Origin: Taeniopygia guttata
Lineage: Eukaryota > Chordata > Aves > Passeriformes > Estrildidae
Assembly: GCF_048771995.1 (NCBI RefSeq)
Contig: NC_133026.1
Coordinates: forward strand, 100,967,001-101,031,000
DNA: 64,000 nt
Direction: 5' to 3'
The translations under genes were made by a program, and so were the position numbers. The notes beneath the pieces were generated by a model. It was not told the DNA's origin and did no database searches. It saw only the letters and a program-made list of their open reading frames with translations. Numbering within the stretch: the stretch's first letter is position 1; each line of letters starts with the position of its first letter. Shown in pieces: positions 2,807 through 11,900 of the stretch.

Positions 2807-2988
2807 TCAGAACATGCAGTTCATACATTTGACAGTTTTACTGCCATAGTCGATGCATTCTGGCCCAATACACTCACAGCAGGCGTTGTGAAACCATCGG
2901 TATTTGGAAGCTCCCATGGACTCGCAAGAGATCTTGCACTGATGTATTGACATGCAGTCATCAAAATACACCACAGTACACATGTGCT
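2807..2988 (-). CDS. TWSG1: TWSG1 last coding exon (C-terminal cysteine-rich domain)
   Basis: The exon enters in phase 1 after a TTTAG acceptor ending at 2989. It encodes residues 164-223, including [24 protein letters not shown] and the terminal CMNCMF. The TGA stop is at 2809-2807. The spacing of cysteines matches the Tsg C-terminal domain. Confidence 0.95.
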
Positions 2989-5900
2989 CTAAACCAAGAG
3001 GGGAAAAAATGTTTAAAAGGACTTAAAGTGTTTTGAAAGGTTAGTTAGAAATTAGTTAAATGAGCAGCTTTAGAAGTATGATTGCAAACCAACAGGACTA
3101 TGAGGCATAGGGAAAAAAGGTGACAGTAAAAGCTGAGAGGCAAATCACAGAGACAAGGTAAAATCTATTCACTTCAATTTTTCAGCATCTACAACTCAAC
3201 CTGTTCTCTGATCTCCTCCTGGATTAATTTACTTCTCTATTCACAGGCAAGAATGTTTTTGAGTTTTGTCCCCCAGTTATGAGAGCATAGGGATGAGCTA
3301 TGCCGAAATTTCAAGCAGGAATGTGTTCTCTGAAGGTAATGTGCTGCCATAAAAAGCTTGAAGTTTAGACAAGTTATTTTAAAAAAACATCAAAACCATT
3401 ATTTGGTTGTATATGTTTCTTTCCCCCCCACCCCAAACTCCACAATAATCTTTAGCCAGTGTAGAGTTGTGTTACTTTTTGTTTTATTCAAGTTCTATTG
3501 CGTTATATTATGTACGCGGTCTGTTCTATGTTCAGTTGGTTTGTTCATTATTGCAATGGATAGCGCATTGGACTTCTAATTCAAAGGTTCCGGGTTCGAG
3601 TCCCGGCGGAGTCGCCAGGAGCCCAGTTCTCCCAGGGAACTGACCCCAGAGGCCCAAGCAGCACTAGAGAAGGTACAGGAAACAATGTCTGCCCGGCAGG
3701 CCCATCGATACGATCCTGATGCAGCATTTAAATTCATCATTTTAGGCAGACTGCCACACCTCCATGGAGTCATCTTTCAGTGGACTGAGACCCGGAGTAA
3801 GATCAAGGACAAGGACCACGGGCGAAGGGATCCTCTCTCAATAATAGAGTGGGTCTTCCTGAGCCATCAACGTTCCAAAAGGATGATGAGGCCACAGGAG
3901 TTGATGGCGGAGCTCATTTGCAAAGCTTAATCGAGAATTCGGAAGTTGGCAGGGTGCGATTTTGAGTGTATCCATTTACCTATAAAATTGGAATCGGGCC
4001 AATTTACAAAGGCCATGTTGGAACACCTGCTTCAAGAGAACGAAGCACTGCAATTTGCTCTAGATAGCTACACCGGTCAAATTTCCGTTTTGAGACTGGC
4101 CCACAAAATTTTTGATTCGGATATCCAATTCACATTAACCACCAAGCAGATCCAGAGCAAAAAACCACTCAATGCTCTAACAGTTTTTACAGACGCGTCC
4201 GGAGGGTCCCACAAGTCCGTAGTGACTTGGAAAGATCCTCAGACTCAGCGGTGGGAGGCAGATGTTGGCGAGGTGGAAGGTTCCCCTCAAATAGCAGAGT
4301 TGGCCGCAGTTGTTAGAGCGTTTGAGAGGTTCTCTGAGCCATTTAATTTGGTGACCGATTCGGCTTATGTAGCAGGTGTAGTATCTAGAGCGCAGGATGC
4401 TATCCTGCAGGGTGTTTCCAACGAGACCCTTCACAAGTTGCTCTCAAAGTTAATTAAATTAGTCTCCCACCAAGAGCAACCATATTATGTGATGCACATT
4501 CGGTTGCACACCAATCTGCCGGGGTTTCTGGCCGAGGGAAATCGGCGTGCCGATTCTCTCGCGGAAGCCCCCGCACAGATGGCACCTCTCCCTGACGTTT
4601 TTCAACAGGCAAAGCTCAGTCATCAGCTATACCATCAGAATGCACCTGGTCTGGTCCGGCAATTCCACCTGAGCCGTGACCAGGCCAGAGCCACTGTGGC
4701 CACATGCCTGTCCTTTAAGTCGCTCCCATTACCATCGGTGAGCGCTGGGGCAAATCCTAGGGGTCTCAAGTCCTGTGAGGTGTGGCAAATGGACCTAACA
4801 CATATAAACTCATTCGGCAGACTGAAGTACATCCATGTATCAGTAGACACCTTCTCTGGCGCCGTCTATGCCTCTGCCCACACAGGGGAGAAGGCATCTG
4901 ACATCAAAAAGCATCTAATATTGGCCTTCTCTACGCTGGGTGTCCCCAAATTGATAAAAACAGATAATGCCCCGGGGTACCAGTCCAAGGAACTCAAAGC
5001 TTTCCTGCAGCAATGGGGAGTAGAACATTAAGACTGGCATTGCCTACTCCCCGACAGGTCAAGCCGTGGTGGAGCGGACTCACCAGAGTCTGAAAAGAAT
5101 GCTAAAACAACAACAACTGACTATGAAGGTCGAGTTCCCCCAGGTTCGATTGTCACGGGCCCTCCTCACCTTAAATTTTCTTAACTGTTCTTTCGAAAAC
5201 TTGAATCCACCCATCACTAGACATTTCAACAATTATCAACAGCGCCAGGTCAGGGAGAATCCGCCAGTTCTCGTAAAAGACCCTGAGACCTGGCAGCTGG
5301 AGGGGCCTTATGAGTTGGTTACCTGGGGTCGTGGGTACGCCTGCGTATCCATTCCCTCAGGCCCAAAGCGGGTCCCTTCCAAATTCGTACGCCCCTATGT
5401 TCCAAAGACACAGCCAAAGAAGGAAATACCCCAGGTGGAGCAGGCGGCGTTTAGATGGAGAAGGAGGCCCTTTCATCCTGATTCCCCTGATGCTTCTAAT
5501 TCCTCCTATTCTCAGGATCCCCCTCTCTTTTGTTTAAGTGACTCGTTCTTCCCCTCCGACCTTGACCTCCCCTGCCCACATTGTTAATTCCCGTTTTTCA
5601 GTTGTGTTCCAGATCACTTTTCATTTGTGGCCAGCATCAAGACGAACAACCTGATGAGCCTCATCCTCCTTGCGGTGACCACCTACCGACCCATGGAAGC
5701 GTGGATCGTTCCTCAGCCCCCCGCCAATGTTTGGGTTACGTTAGCTAAAGCCCTGAACCAAGACCACCTCTGCTTGTCCACCTCTTCTGTTGCAAACCCA
5801 TTCCTGTCCTGCCTTGTGGGGATTCCCTACCCCCTCGACAATCTCCCATTCAGTTTCCCAAAAAACGTTACTGCCCCCTGAAACCAGTCCACACAATTTC

Positions 5901-8900
5901 AAAGTGTCCAACTTAATGCTCCGCATGAATGGAGAGTGTGGTACCGGTCCCTTCCTATCCTTGATGAAGAACCCCAAGAAGTTTCCCTTTTAGGTTCCGC
6001 TTTAGCTTACACCTGTGTGCAGTTTTTCTCTGTTGCTGATCCCCACCCCATTGTGAAGTCCAGGCCCTTTCTCGAAATAAAGTAATCTATGAAGGAATAT
6101 ACTGCCGGGGAGTGGTGCCTCAAGGTGATTCAGATCGATGCAGCCACCACCTACGAGGAACAACCTCGCAAATTACCAAAAGGCACCTTCTTCCTGTGTG
6201 GTAACAGGGCCTGGGCTGGCATCCCCTCTCGCCTTCTCGGAGGACCATGCACCTTTGGGCAGCTGACGCTGTTCACACCCAACAAAACGCAAATTGCACA
6301 TTGGCAAGAAGTAAATTCAACAGGGAATTTGGCCAGATCCAAAAGAGATACCAATTTTAGGACTTTGGATGAGGACTGTAATGACGAAATTTTCCATTGG
6401 GATCAGACCAAGAGCGTGCTCATCACCACATTCATTCCTTGGTGGTCGATAGCACAGTTTAAATGAGCTCAAAGGTCTTGAGTGTTGGGTGGCGAAACAA
6501 GCCAATATTACCTCAGCCGCTTTATCAGGACTCCTAGAAGACGAGAAAGTCACAAGGCAGGCGACCCTTCAAAACCGTGCAGCCATTATCTTTTGTTACT
6601 TCACAATCATAGATGTGAAGAATTTGCAGGCATGTGTTGCTTCAATTTAAGTTCAAAAGCTGAGGACATCCGCACTTCCATCACAAAAATGAAAGAAATG
6701 ATAAGTCACATCAAGCAAGAACCGAGTGACTGGTTAGGGTCGGTCTTTAGTGGATGGGGACTCTCAAACCTTGGCCAATCGTTCTTAAGTTTTCCCTTAT
6801 ACTCCTGTTTGCCCTCATGGTTTTCATTATTGGATTAAGTATCATTAAAAGACTTGTTTTGGACCATCTAAACGCAGCTATCAACTCTACACCACAAGTC
6901 TGCCACGCAGAGATGACACTGCTCACCACCAATGAAGATCCAGAAGAGCAAAAAGAAGTGTGGTTTGAAGTGCGACCCCCCCGTTTAAGTTCTCCCCGTT
7001 TCATTTGTTTTAAACAAAAAAGGGGGAGATGTAGAGTTGTGTTGCTTTTTGTTTTATTCAAGTTCTATTGCGTTATATTATGTACGTGGTCTGTTCTATG
7101 TTCAGTTGGTTTGTTCCATGTACCCCAGGTTTTTTTGAGTTGGTTCCTTCCCCAGTTTCCCGCCTCTCCTCCCCTGTCAATCTTCCCCAAAAGTGCCGAG
7201 TCATTTCCCTGCCCTCTCCCAGGATCCCTGTCCGTCACCCGGTGCCCCTGCCCCTCCATCCAGAACTTTCTACCCAGGGCATTGTGTGATTGGACCAGGT
7301 CCTGAGACCCCTCCCATACCTCTCTCCCATTGGCCTTTTCCCCAAGAGCGAGCCACTCCCCGAAGATCCCCATTGGTCCCAGTTTTCCCCGCCCCCAGTA
7401 GTATAAAATCCCCTGACATCCAGCCCCAAGTGCCTTCTCTGGCAGGCACCAATCCCGTCAACTGGATCCTCGTCAGCGTGTTGTCCCCATTGGGACCCAA
7501 TAAAGAGGATTTTGGCCCCCAGAGGAGGACTCTCTTTTCTGTCAACACCGCGGGGATTCGGCTGCGTCTTCACCAACCCACCCAGCGCTCTCCAAAGCCT
7601 TCAGAGGCCCTGCGGAGGGTGCTGGAGACCTGCCCGCTCTCTCCCTCGCAGAGAGCTAGCCGGGGGCAAGACGAGGCTTGAGGGGGAGAACGCGGCAAGC
7701 CAGATTAAATTACAGAGCTACAGAATCTTTTTTTCATCAGCATGAAACTGCACACTTTTTTCTTCCTTTTTTTTTTAGCAACATCACCACCTTTATTACT
7801 AATCTTAAGAACCCCCTTCTGCCTAAGTGTTGACCTCATGCTTCTAACACCCATGCAATTACTTGAAACACCATGAAGTTCAGGGCTGCAACATCAAAAT
7901 GGAGCTAAGGCATTCACCACAACTATAAAATAAAACCATCCCCACCTCAGTCCACTTCAAATTCTCCAAGCTGGCAGATTCCACCACCTTTCTTCTGTAC
8001 TGACCAAGTGATTATACTATAAAACTTGGTTCATCCTCCAAAGGACCATGATTACATAACATTTACCCAGAGCATAACTTGGCAGACTTTGGGGAAATCT
8101 CAACTGGCAGCTGTTTGCAAATAGAGATGTCTCCCTCACCCAGATCAGACCAACTTGTAAGCAGGAGATGTCAAAGGGCTTTCTAGCCTATTACTACTCA
8201 TGGTACACCTGGGAGAAACCCACTGATCTACATTCCAATAGATTCGTTTGGATTAGAAAAAAGTAATCCAAACTTAAATAGTAAATCTAGACAGTGGGTT
8301 TGGTTTGATGTTTTTTTAATGACTGATTTTGACCACTGTCAAATTATTTTGCTACTACCAAAACAGCTGCAAGAAGGTCAGAGGATCTGGTGCCAGCCCA
8401 CTGAAATAAACAGAGTATCCACTGCCTTGGTCGGGCTCCAGACACCAGATACAGTGCAACAGGCAATAGGGATCTTGGGCAGGAGAGGCAGACCCAGAGT
8501 TGAAGCAGTTTCTGGTCCCAGAAAAGCTGTGCTGCAAGTAAACCTGCAGTTGTCAAAAAAAATCTTGCAGTACCCGAAGAACTGCTGGGAACAAAGTGTA
8601 CTGTGTAAATCCTGTCCCATTCTTGGCACTTCTGTTTCTGTAAGCCCTTATAATATATCCTGAGGCACAGCAACCAGAGGAATAGAGTTCTCAGAGAACA
8701 AACCTCTACCTGAAAACAACAATCCTTCAATAAGGATGTTTGATTGACAGAGAGGAAGAGGAAAGAGCTGAATAGAAGTGTATGCTATGGTACCATGTGC
8801 AAGGAGTGATAGGTATACACCTGAAGTGCTCAGCCCAAGCTGAAAAGCAGTAGGGAGATGCAGCGACCACAGCCTCAAAGGCAAGGTGGCATTCAGAGGC

Positions 8901-11900
8901 CAGACAGCAGCTCCAACTTCTATGGGGAATGCACAAGGACTTGGCAACACTTCATCACCAGTGACAAAAACGCTCAGACTGCCATAGTCCTAAAGAAGAA
9001 GCACACACCATCCATTCTTGGAAGGCCCAGACAGCCCTCGGTATCTGTTCCCTTCACTCCTCACAGGAAGGTTTTAGTGGAAGGGTAGGGATGAGAAAGT
9101 AGAAGCAAGTATTCAGGCAGTATTGTCATGTCCCATCAGTCATCCAAGTCAGTGCTGGGGTTCAAGCACAAGAGCCTTACAGAAGCCTCTGTTGGACATT
9201 ACTCATACTCTTTATATACCTTTGCTTTATCTCTGTTCAGTCCTATGATATCCTTTTGGTAGCTTTTTACTGAAGTGTTACTACATTAAGTTTGATCTTA
9301 AATTCCATACATAGTCTTAGAAGGCGTCAACCGGAGGCATGAGGCCTCTTCCTTGAAACAGGCCATCCTAGCTAATCTAGAAAGATTTCTTCCTGCAAAA
9401 TCACCTTTTGGGATGCCATCTCCAAGCAACTGACTTAGTCTCTGGATAAACCTGAGAAGGCAAAATGATTCATGGCTATCTCCAGATTGGAGTGAAACAG
9501 CCCTTCAAAGGAAGCAACAATCCAAGGGGTTGCCAGAAGTGATCTGTTGATCATGGCACTCCAACTTGCAGCACACAAAAGAAAGCCTAAGGTAGGTCAG
9601 GGAAGTTGTCAGGAAAGCTGTGCGCACTCTCAGGTGTGCTAACTGCTCCCAGCATTTACAGGCTGTCTTCACACCAGAGAATGTCCAGTTCCTTCTGCGT
9701 AAGGAGACATCTGCGCTCACCTTCATATTAACCTAATCTCTGACAGCCTCAGCAGTGTTAGTACTGCTTCACAAGTCCTGGTGAAGCCCCGAGTTCATCA
9801 GCTAATGCCTGCAGAAGTGAAATAAACTTCCTGGGGAAGGAGAGCCTGTGATTTCTAGGATGTAAAGACTGATGACACTGTCATCAATCACTGTTTATCT
9901 CTTGGATAAAGGAGGCCAGAGGAGCAGCAGCACCTGGTCTATAACTCTGCAAAACTAGGTGGCATCAGTCAGCTCCTGTGAGACTGCAGCCTGGTCTCCT
10001 GAATCACTCTCCCAGGACCAAAGCCAAAATTCAACCTTATTATGGTGGCAGAGACAACCAAGGATATTAATCTTGACTGACTGGAGAGTAGAGAAGAAAA
10101 TTTATTTCCACCTGCACACAAGTCAAGGGGATTAGGTTCTCGAGGACAAGTACAAAAATGCTGCAAAGGGGAGAGAGCAGACTGCATGTGGCAGGCCAAA
10201 GCCAGCAGTAAATCCATCTTGTCCCAAGCAGCTCCTCTAAGCAGCTAACTATGTGCTCCATGTATGTGTTACCAAATTGTTTCTGATGTCTTGCTCACTG
10301 AAAGACTTTCCAGGTCTGAACAAGTCAGATTGTCCAGGGTGCACTTTGTTTGATCACAGGGCACTCCTGGTCCCCTCCTCAGCAATGCCTCTGTGCTCCT
10401 GTAGAGGCTGAATTACTGAAAGCAGTAGAGTTCCTTCCCTTAAGCACCAAATCCTGCTCTATAGACTGCAAAAAGAGAGTTACACAGGGGAAAAAAATAC
10501 ATACCTACAGGCTCAGCTGGGATCTGGGAGAGTACTTAAATTGTTTCACAAAGCTAATTACCGAGTCATCACTTGGCTCCCTCAGTGTAAATAAAAACAA
10601 TATTATTTAGTGCAGTAACAGCTTTCTCATTTGTATTTTGCCAATTTTCACACCCTAAGGATGACAGACTGCAGATGCAGCAAAAGGATGCAGTAGTAAA
10701 CTTTTTTCCCCCGATCATTAACTTCTGACCTTCCCCCCCCCCCCCCTTCATACTTAGTGAAGGTTGTGTAGGAGAAACAACAGTCAAGTCTAAATTAAAA
10801 GATTAAACTACCAGGCTTTGCTATAAAACTATCTGTATTAGTGTAATATAGAAAACTTTAGCAACTCAGAGAACCTTCCCAGTTAATGATAATTTGCTGT
10901 ATGGGATCTTTGAAGTTATATGTGCTGTCTGCTGGTCACTTTATTGGTAACTCTAAAAGTTCTTTAAGAAGGTAACTGTCCATCCAGTGGTCATACCATT
11001 TTATCACAGAATGGCCTGGGTTGGAAGGAATCTTAAAGATCATCTAGTTCCAACCCCTCTTCTGTTGGCAGGGATATACCTTCCACTAGAAAAAACACTC
11101 GTCTAGTGCAGTAGTGAGAAGAGGGGAAAACAGGAACAGGGAGATGAACCTGCAACTGTTTAGGAACAATCAACTTACATAATCTACTACTTTTGGACAA
11201 GTCAATTTTATGTCAATTAATTTATAAAAAGAAACATTTTTTTTCTTAATCTTCCTAGACTACCTACAGAGGTAGATGTCTCTTCACTGGAATTGTAGCT
11301 CTCCTCTCCCTGTTGCACTGTCAGGGAGAAGAACTGCAGACCAGACACCATCCCCTGTATCACCAAGCAATTAAGTCAGAAACCCTTAACTACAGCACAG
11401 ATTTTGTTTTATCAATTGCCAAAAAATTATCTAGTTCCCCTCTCCCTCTTGCCAACATCCTGTCATCATCTGAAACAACTAAGCTTATTTAAATCTCTGA
11501 ACTCACAGTTCAGAGCTCTGAGGGTATCAGCCAGAAGTAAAGCAAAGAGAATGAAGTACAAATGTAGCTCCAGATTAACAGCCATGGCAATCCTCTCTGA
11601 AGTAGAGTCTCAAGTTCCAGAAACAACTGATACAAAGAGCTACAGCAGCTCCAGCAGCGCATGCATAACTTTGGCAGCTAAAACATTACAAGTCAGTTCA
11701 CAGAAGGAAAGGGAAGACACTCATTAAGAGTTCAAGGTAGCTGGTGGCTGGGTTCAGAGTAGGCTGGGGCAAGAAAGGAATGCTTTATATCCCACTGCAC
11801 CCCACCTCCTCCTGGATCAACAGCTGCCTTCCCTGGTGGTGGCTCCACGCCACTGAGGCACAAAGCTCATAGTTCCCGGGGCTGGTGCTGCTTTTCCTGG

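Follow-up and report, generated by a model that had tools for sequence, protein, structure and literature searches.

A provirus of the class II avian retrovirus type lies at 3460-7697 of the 64,000-nucleotide stretch of Taeniopygia guttata DNA analysed here (the window), and it probably derives from an aberrant reverse transcript that was completed by way of a host tRNA before undergoing a normal integration. Its left side reads, in order, the first 87 nucleotides of U3, the six bases ATTATT, 65 nt of sense tRNA-Arg(UCU) and pol, which begins at 3618 with GGAGCCC. The left side lacks the remaining U3, R, U5, the primer-binding site, gag, pro and the 5' portion of pol, a loss put at about 4.4 kb from the length of a sibling provirus. 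The features are as follows.

3454-3459, no strand: target-site duplication AGCCAG, left copy, paired with the right copy at 7698-7703
3460-3546, plus strand: first 87 nt of U3, forming the integrated left end (TG); 98% identical to 7030-7116, with 2 differences
3547-3552, plus strand: ATTATT, of uncertain origin, within a 10-nt match, TTCATTATTG, to env 6823-6832
3553-3617, plus strand: nt 12-76 of a spliced, mature tRNA-Arg(UCU), its CCA at 3615-3617; 65/65 against the spliced gene product plus CCA; RF00005
3618-5587, plus strand: 3' part of pol, with RT connection (by position), RNase H and integrase, interrupted by stops; relatives align from 3618; PF00075, PF02022, PF00665, PF00552
6089-6466, plus strand: env piece matching avian retrovirus gp85; PF03708, E 6.8e-14
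7016-7029, plus strand: 3' polypurine tract, AAAAAAGGGGGAGA
7030-7697, plus strand: complete 3' LTR, TG...CA, 668 bp
7698-7703, no strand: target-site duplication AGCCAG, right copy

The Pfam domains were sought in five open reading frames lying between the existing stops, three of which gave matches (RNase H through the integrase C-terminal domain, and the gp85 piece). With TG...CA termini and AGCCAG on both sides, the provirus was inserted by an integrase-type event, and the exact left end noted in the preliminary description is borne out by this TG terminus and its duplication. All 25 LTR loci that were compared, among them the one in the window (25 of 40 scored, from 49 candidates), have CA at the 3' end, and other copies of the LTR are flanked by the 6-bp duplications CTGAAG and GCCCCT (L003: 5-6 bp). 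There is no N in window 3001-8000.

On contig C3, where the window occupies G000:C3:100967001-101031000, the provirus is antisense to TWSG1 and stands about 0.46 kb ahead of the last coding exon of that gene (minus strand, open frame 2810-3001; PF04668, E 1.2e-29). The sole solved-structure match is Twisted gastrulation homolog 1, and the provirus presumably sits within the last intron of TWSG1. The 2 differences in 87 nt of U3 and the absence of any in 65 nt of tRNA, taken with a bird rate that we assume to be near 2e-9 per site per year, point to an age of a few million years for the provirus, with a large error. Farther along the window, a Y RNA match at 11092-11203 (minus strand; RF00019, 40.6 bits) is perhaps a retrocopy.

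The exact splicing of the tRNA segment, together with its CCA, is strong evidence that it was copied from a mature, processed tRNA-Arg(UCU). When 3547-3617 was searched against the bird's own genome, three candidates came up and all three were scored: the segment itself, a tRNA-Arg-TCT gene on contig C10 and a degraded piece on C4. The C10 gene (G000:C10, L040:1490-1575) is called Arg(tct) with a 13-nt intron by ARAGORN and scores 56.8 bits with Rfam; it is the one Arg-TCT gene found, and the genome may hold others. Its 3' flank reads TGTCTTCTCTTTT, so that CCA is not encoded. Joining its exons and adding CCA gives 76 nt, and window 3553-3617 is identical to nt 12-76 of that product at 65 of 65 positions. 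Relative to this gene the intron is gone and CCA has been gained, and the source is therefore the mature tRNA. Direct insertion of a genomic tRNA gene is ruled out, as the segment is intron-less and CCA-bearing and the C10 gene is the reverse. Intron absence alone would be weak evidence, because mouse tRNA-Arg-TCT-4-1 has no intron (PMC11472047).

The structural scan agrees. Rfam RF00005 matches 3549-3606 on the plus strand at 34 bits (gathering score 29), with an E value of 0.0025 over the 64-kb window and of 4.7e-06 when the 121 bases around the segment are scanned. ARAGORN called no tRNA gene at the segment, which we attribute to the missing 5' acceptor strand, and a literature search for printed tRNA-Arg letters found none. 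The preliminary description had placed a sense tRNA-Arg(UCU), copied from processed tRNA, between an 87-nt piece of U3 and pol, and had proposed checking it by alignment, by structural scan and by a search for further copies of the junction. Its reading holds on both points, from the 98% match of the U3 piece to the identity with the spliced, CCA-tailed product, and in the bird's own genome the U3/tRNA/pol junction was found at one place, spanned by 1 of the 40 scored matches (of 266 candidates).

The degraded tRNA-Arg-TCT piece on C4, at G000:C4:8399454-8399505 on the minus strand (L041:1501-1552), likewise has no intron and bears CCA; it matches mature nt 25-76 at 87% over 52 nt. Its CCA is joined to AAAACTGATGCCTTGAGAGGC..., with AATAAA downstream, and it is possibly another tRNA/repeat fusion. 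Reverse transcription of mature tRNA-Arg therefore seems to have happened on more than one occasion.

The segment is not a primer-binding site. It is sense to the provirus and lies between U3 and pol, whereas a primer-binding site would be antisense and would follow U5. We compared the leader pieces 5' of five pol-bearing relatives with 18-nt primer-site complements that we take to be those of tRNA-Lys and tRNA-Arg. The sibling, whose 5' LTR starts at C3:125043171 and is 85% identical to the provirus LTR, matches tRNA-Lys at 16 of 18 positions directly after the LTR. Three other related loci match the same assumed tRNA-Lys sequence at 18, 17 and 16 of 18; at the search sensitivity used, the LTRs of two of them match the provirus LTR partly and that of the third does not. 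The fifth piece has no tRNA-Lys site (11/18) and no LTR match, and the best match to tRNA-Arg across the five pieces is 10-12 of 18. Among the 25 LTR 3' ends compared, a primer site follows in the sibling alone. The captured tRNA-Arg thus appears to differ from the primer that the family's sites suggest, tRNA-Lys, the provirus's own site having been deleted. Orientation and the tRNA-Lys-type sites of relatives together rule out a primer-binding site or primer read-through, in keeping with the earlier statement that this is no such site. The tRNA-Lys-type primer site in the sibling (L014:1244-1261) and the alpharetrovirus-type avian gp85 env piece here (window 3618-7697) make a class II mosaic possible.

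The junction with pol appears to lie at the 3' edge of a G-run, a clue missing from the preliminary description. This edge is read through relatives and not from the provirus's actual parent: 29 of the 40 scored own-genome matches cover pol only, and 25 of these 29 were inspected at the junction. Directly before it, the relatives have at least six G in 20 of 25, at least five in 23 and only four in two. Of the 25, 24 have A as the last base and the remaining one has T, and none has CCA there. CCA as shared pol sequence is ruled out beyond that final A, so at most one base could be shared between tRNA and pol. The commonest form of the tract, TTGAAAGGGGGGGA (15 of 25 relatives), ends at the start of the tRNA-fused pol, in the same register as the 3' polypurine tract, AAAAAAGGGGGA, which is followed by GATG and U3; the comparison assumes the trimming of two terminal bases by integrase. 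In the nearest relative, 77/83 identical at the junction, the tract is GAAGCGGGGGGT, which is broken by C and ends in T and is not an unbroken purine tract.

G-runs of at least six are rare in the sibling pieces, with four distinct ones in about 5.5 kb: three in L005 1-1515, one of them the junction tract (which recurs in L013), and a run of 13 G in the leader, in L014. By a post hoc estimate, a random junction would fall within two bases of the edge of such a run with a chance of about 0.2%. Among the 25 relatives (L005, L009-L012 and L019-L038), 15 have the internal purine-rich tract GAAAGGGGGGGA, which is possibly a central-PPT-like plus-strand primer. We also considered, and rejected, that the tRNA itself primed plus-strand synthesis in pol through base pairing, as the tRNA 3' end, GGAGTCGCCA, is by eye unlike the bases before the junction in either form of the tract.

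The six bases between U3 and the tRNA belong to neither. With their flanks they form the 10-nt match to env. Of 3000 Markov sequences, 36 gave a match of at least 10 nt, whereas none of 106 overlapping controls taken from the window did; a single copy of ATTATTG lies on the minus strand as well, at 3845. ATTATT may represent a brief third template, for which the env origin is only suggestive, or untemplated bases. Misincorporation opposite m1G9 or m2G10 is unlikely, because four of the five bases of 3548-3552 differ by eye from tRNA nt 7-11 and one of the differing tRNA bases is a C that we take to be unmodified.

We propose a model in which minus-strand synthesis proceeded leftward across env and then pol until it came to an end where the pol G-run has its 3' edge. 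From there the polymerase would have transferred to the CCA end of a mature tRNA-Arg(UCU), the two templates sharing no more than one base; the source is observed, and the jump onto it is proposed. The tRNA would have been copied to nt 12, after which six bases would have been added or copied, possibly from env. Synthesis would have resumed on U3 at nt 87 and finished there, the likeliest template being plus-strand strong-stop DNA. Both ends of the product were proper ones, and it integrated with the 6-bp duplication that is observed. One finished product cannot show the order of events; the order of the jumps, the last template and the causes of the stops are inferred.

Template switching, which the preliminary description had also favored, fits best, given the pol G-run edge and a sense tRNA with CCA toward pol, the arrangement expected from copying of the minus strand. 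Plus-strand strong-stop DNA is preferred as the last template because its 5' end is exact at the U3 terminus; were genomic RNA the last template, the minus strand would run past U3 into env and its end would need trimming. The earlier proposal that plus-strand priming at the polypurine tract of the template set the left end is right as to the exactness of that end, but it seems less economical than a jump onto strong-stop DNA.

A methylated base near tRNA positions 9-10 had been offered as the reason for the stop at nt 12. According to a review (PMC13191261), position 58 is m1A in retroviral primer tRNAs, tRNA-Arg included with its isoacceptor unspecified, and m1A58 is the usual stop of plus-strand copying in HIV-1. 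Here the copy ran past position 58 and A58 is unchanged; methylation near 9-10 is therefore a possible but unproved reason for the end at nt 12, and the earlier suggestion is left uncertain.

Two elaborations bear on how the ends were set, and we regard both with doubt. One is a variant within the explanation we prefer, sharing its odds and not adding to them, in which the internal pol tract would prime a plus strand that starts at GGAGCCC and whose 5' end becomes the end of the template for the minus strand; the minus strand would then jump to the tRNA, so that both junction-defining ends are plus-strand starts. It draws on the presence of the tract in 15 of 25 relatives and on a junction one base past the G-run, as at the 3' polypurine tract (GGGGGA then GATG, with the two-base trimming assumed). 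The nearest relative speaks against it, with its C-broken, T-ending tract and with no purine tract of at least 14 in its 1515 bases up to the junction, and the sole such tract in the provirus remnant is the 3' polypurine tract; a pause of the minus strand at the G-run fits equally. The other elaboration, a speculative one that we would not count as likely, makes the tRNA an accidental stand-in for the second strand transfer. The internal purine-rich tract and the 3' polypurine tract would define the ends of the viral DNA, the tRNA copied from its 3' end would bridge them and the left primer-binding site would never be used; short tRNA-bridged proviruses (a piece of U3, a tRNA that begins near nt 11-13 and runs through CCA, a viral purine-tract edge) would then be a recurrent and recognisable germline class.

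Repair after integration offers a different route to much the same final sequence, in which a double-strand break later took about 4.4 kb out of a full provirus, starting at U3 nt 88 and reaching into pol, and cDNA of a mature tRNA served as filler. The target duplication and the right LTR are equally expected under repair, and Gurgo and Franchini argue for tRNA-linked post-integration loss for HIV in a Jurkat clone (PMC12220202). However, the break would have to hit the edge of the pol G-run by chance, free tRNA cDNA would be required and the orientation of the tRNA would be random, whereas the orientation seen is the one predicted for minus-strand copying; we consider repair unlikely. LINE-type (CR1) retrotransposition of a viral/tRNA chimera might be entertained in view of the second intron-less, CCA-bearing piece at L041, but it is contradicted by ends that are the TG and CA of an LTR, by the 6-bp duplication, where a LINE copy would have a longer one of variable length, and by the absence of an A-rich tail, and is extremely improbable. 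An assembly or library artefact would accord with a junction found at a single place among 40 scored matches. It is nonetheless highly improbable, as the two flanks, the duplicated target site and the pair of U3 copies form a coherent whole, no N lies nearby and the tRNA gene is on another contig, C10.

If the provirus has been read correctly, an animal germline holds at least one fossil of tRNA capture by retroviral reverse transcriptase, and its sources can be named: an intron-bearing host gene, a virus family and the edge in pol at which copying stopped. The reading also suggests a route by which viral DNA may regain an integrable end without a primer-binding site, and it predicts, for any genome, spliced CCA-bearing tRNA pieces adjoining proviral purine tracts.

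Although the preliminary description knew of no named class of element with this layout, HITME in HIV-1 and two other tRNA captures had already been described (PMC12220202). HITME is reported there as 63 nt of tRNA-Asp or 65 nt of tRNA-Glu replacing an inserted hairpin, and the likeness lies in the non-homologous capture of a non-primer, nearly whole tRNA in place of a deleted segment, with 65 nt here too. In the provirus, 65 of the 76 nt of mature tRNA-Arg stand in place of about 4.4 kb, a HITME-type feature. The donor site was an engineered 300-nt hairpin in HIV and, judging by relatives, has a natural G-run here, and HITME concerns a replicating virus whereas this is an inherited provirus, in which U3 follows the tRNA as acceptor and little of the left LTR survives. 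If the counts of 63 and 65 run from CCA, and with the tRNA lengths that we assume, HITME inserts would end near nt 11-13, as the tRNA does here.

The two other captures are also set out in PMC12220202. Colicelli and Goff are cited there for a tRNA-Gly between the LTRs of an MMLV circle, a case that shares with this one the fusion of reverse-transcribed tRNA to retroviral DNA; there the tRNA is fused at an LTR/LTR circle junction, lacks four 5' bases and is explained by a spurious primer, whereas here it lies inside a provirus against pol and lacks 11. Gurgo and Franchini (2025) found a CCA-bearing tRNA-Gly beside an HIV-MN provirus, a copy that they link to proviral sequence loss, the HIV integration itself being regular. 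That tRNA lies outside the 3' LTR and replaces host DNA, whereas the present one is internal to the integrated provirus, with U3 on its left and pol on its right. In HIV-1 proviruses whose LTRs are asymmetric, a large deletion likewise takes part of one LTR and is attributed to reverse transcription errors, but in that model the damaged LTR is the 3' one and the accessible part of that source describes no host tRNA insert (PMC9278108). Among the papers listed in searches of open-licence literature, judged by titles and abstract openings, none describes endogenous or germline tRNA capture. The provirus looks like a germline fossil of tRNA capture by a retroviral reverse transcriptase, a process described from laboratory retroviruses, and it differs from them in the fusion of the tRNA to a truncated U3.
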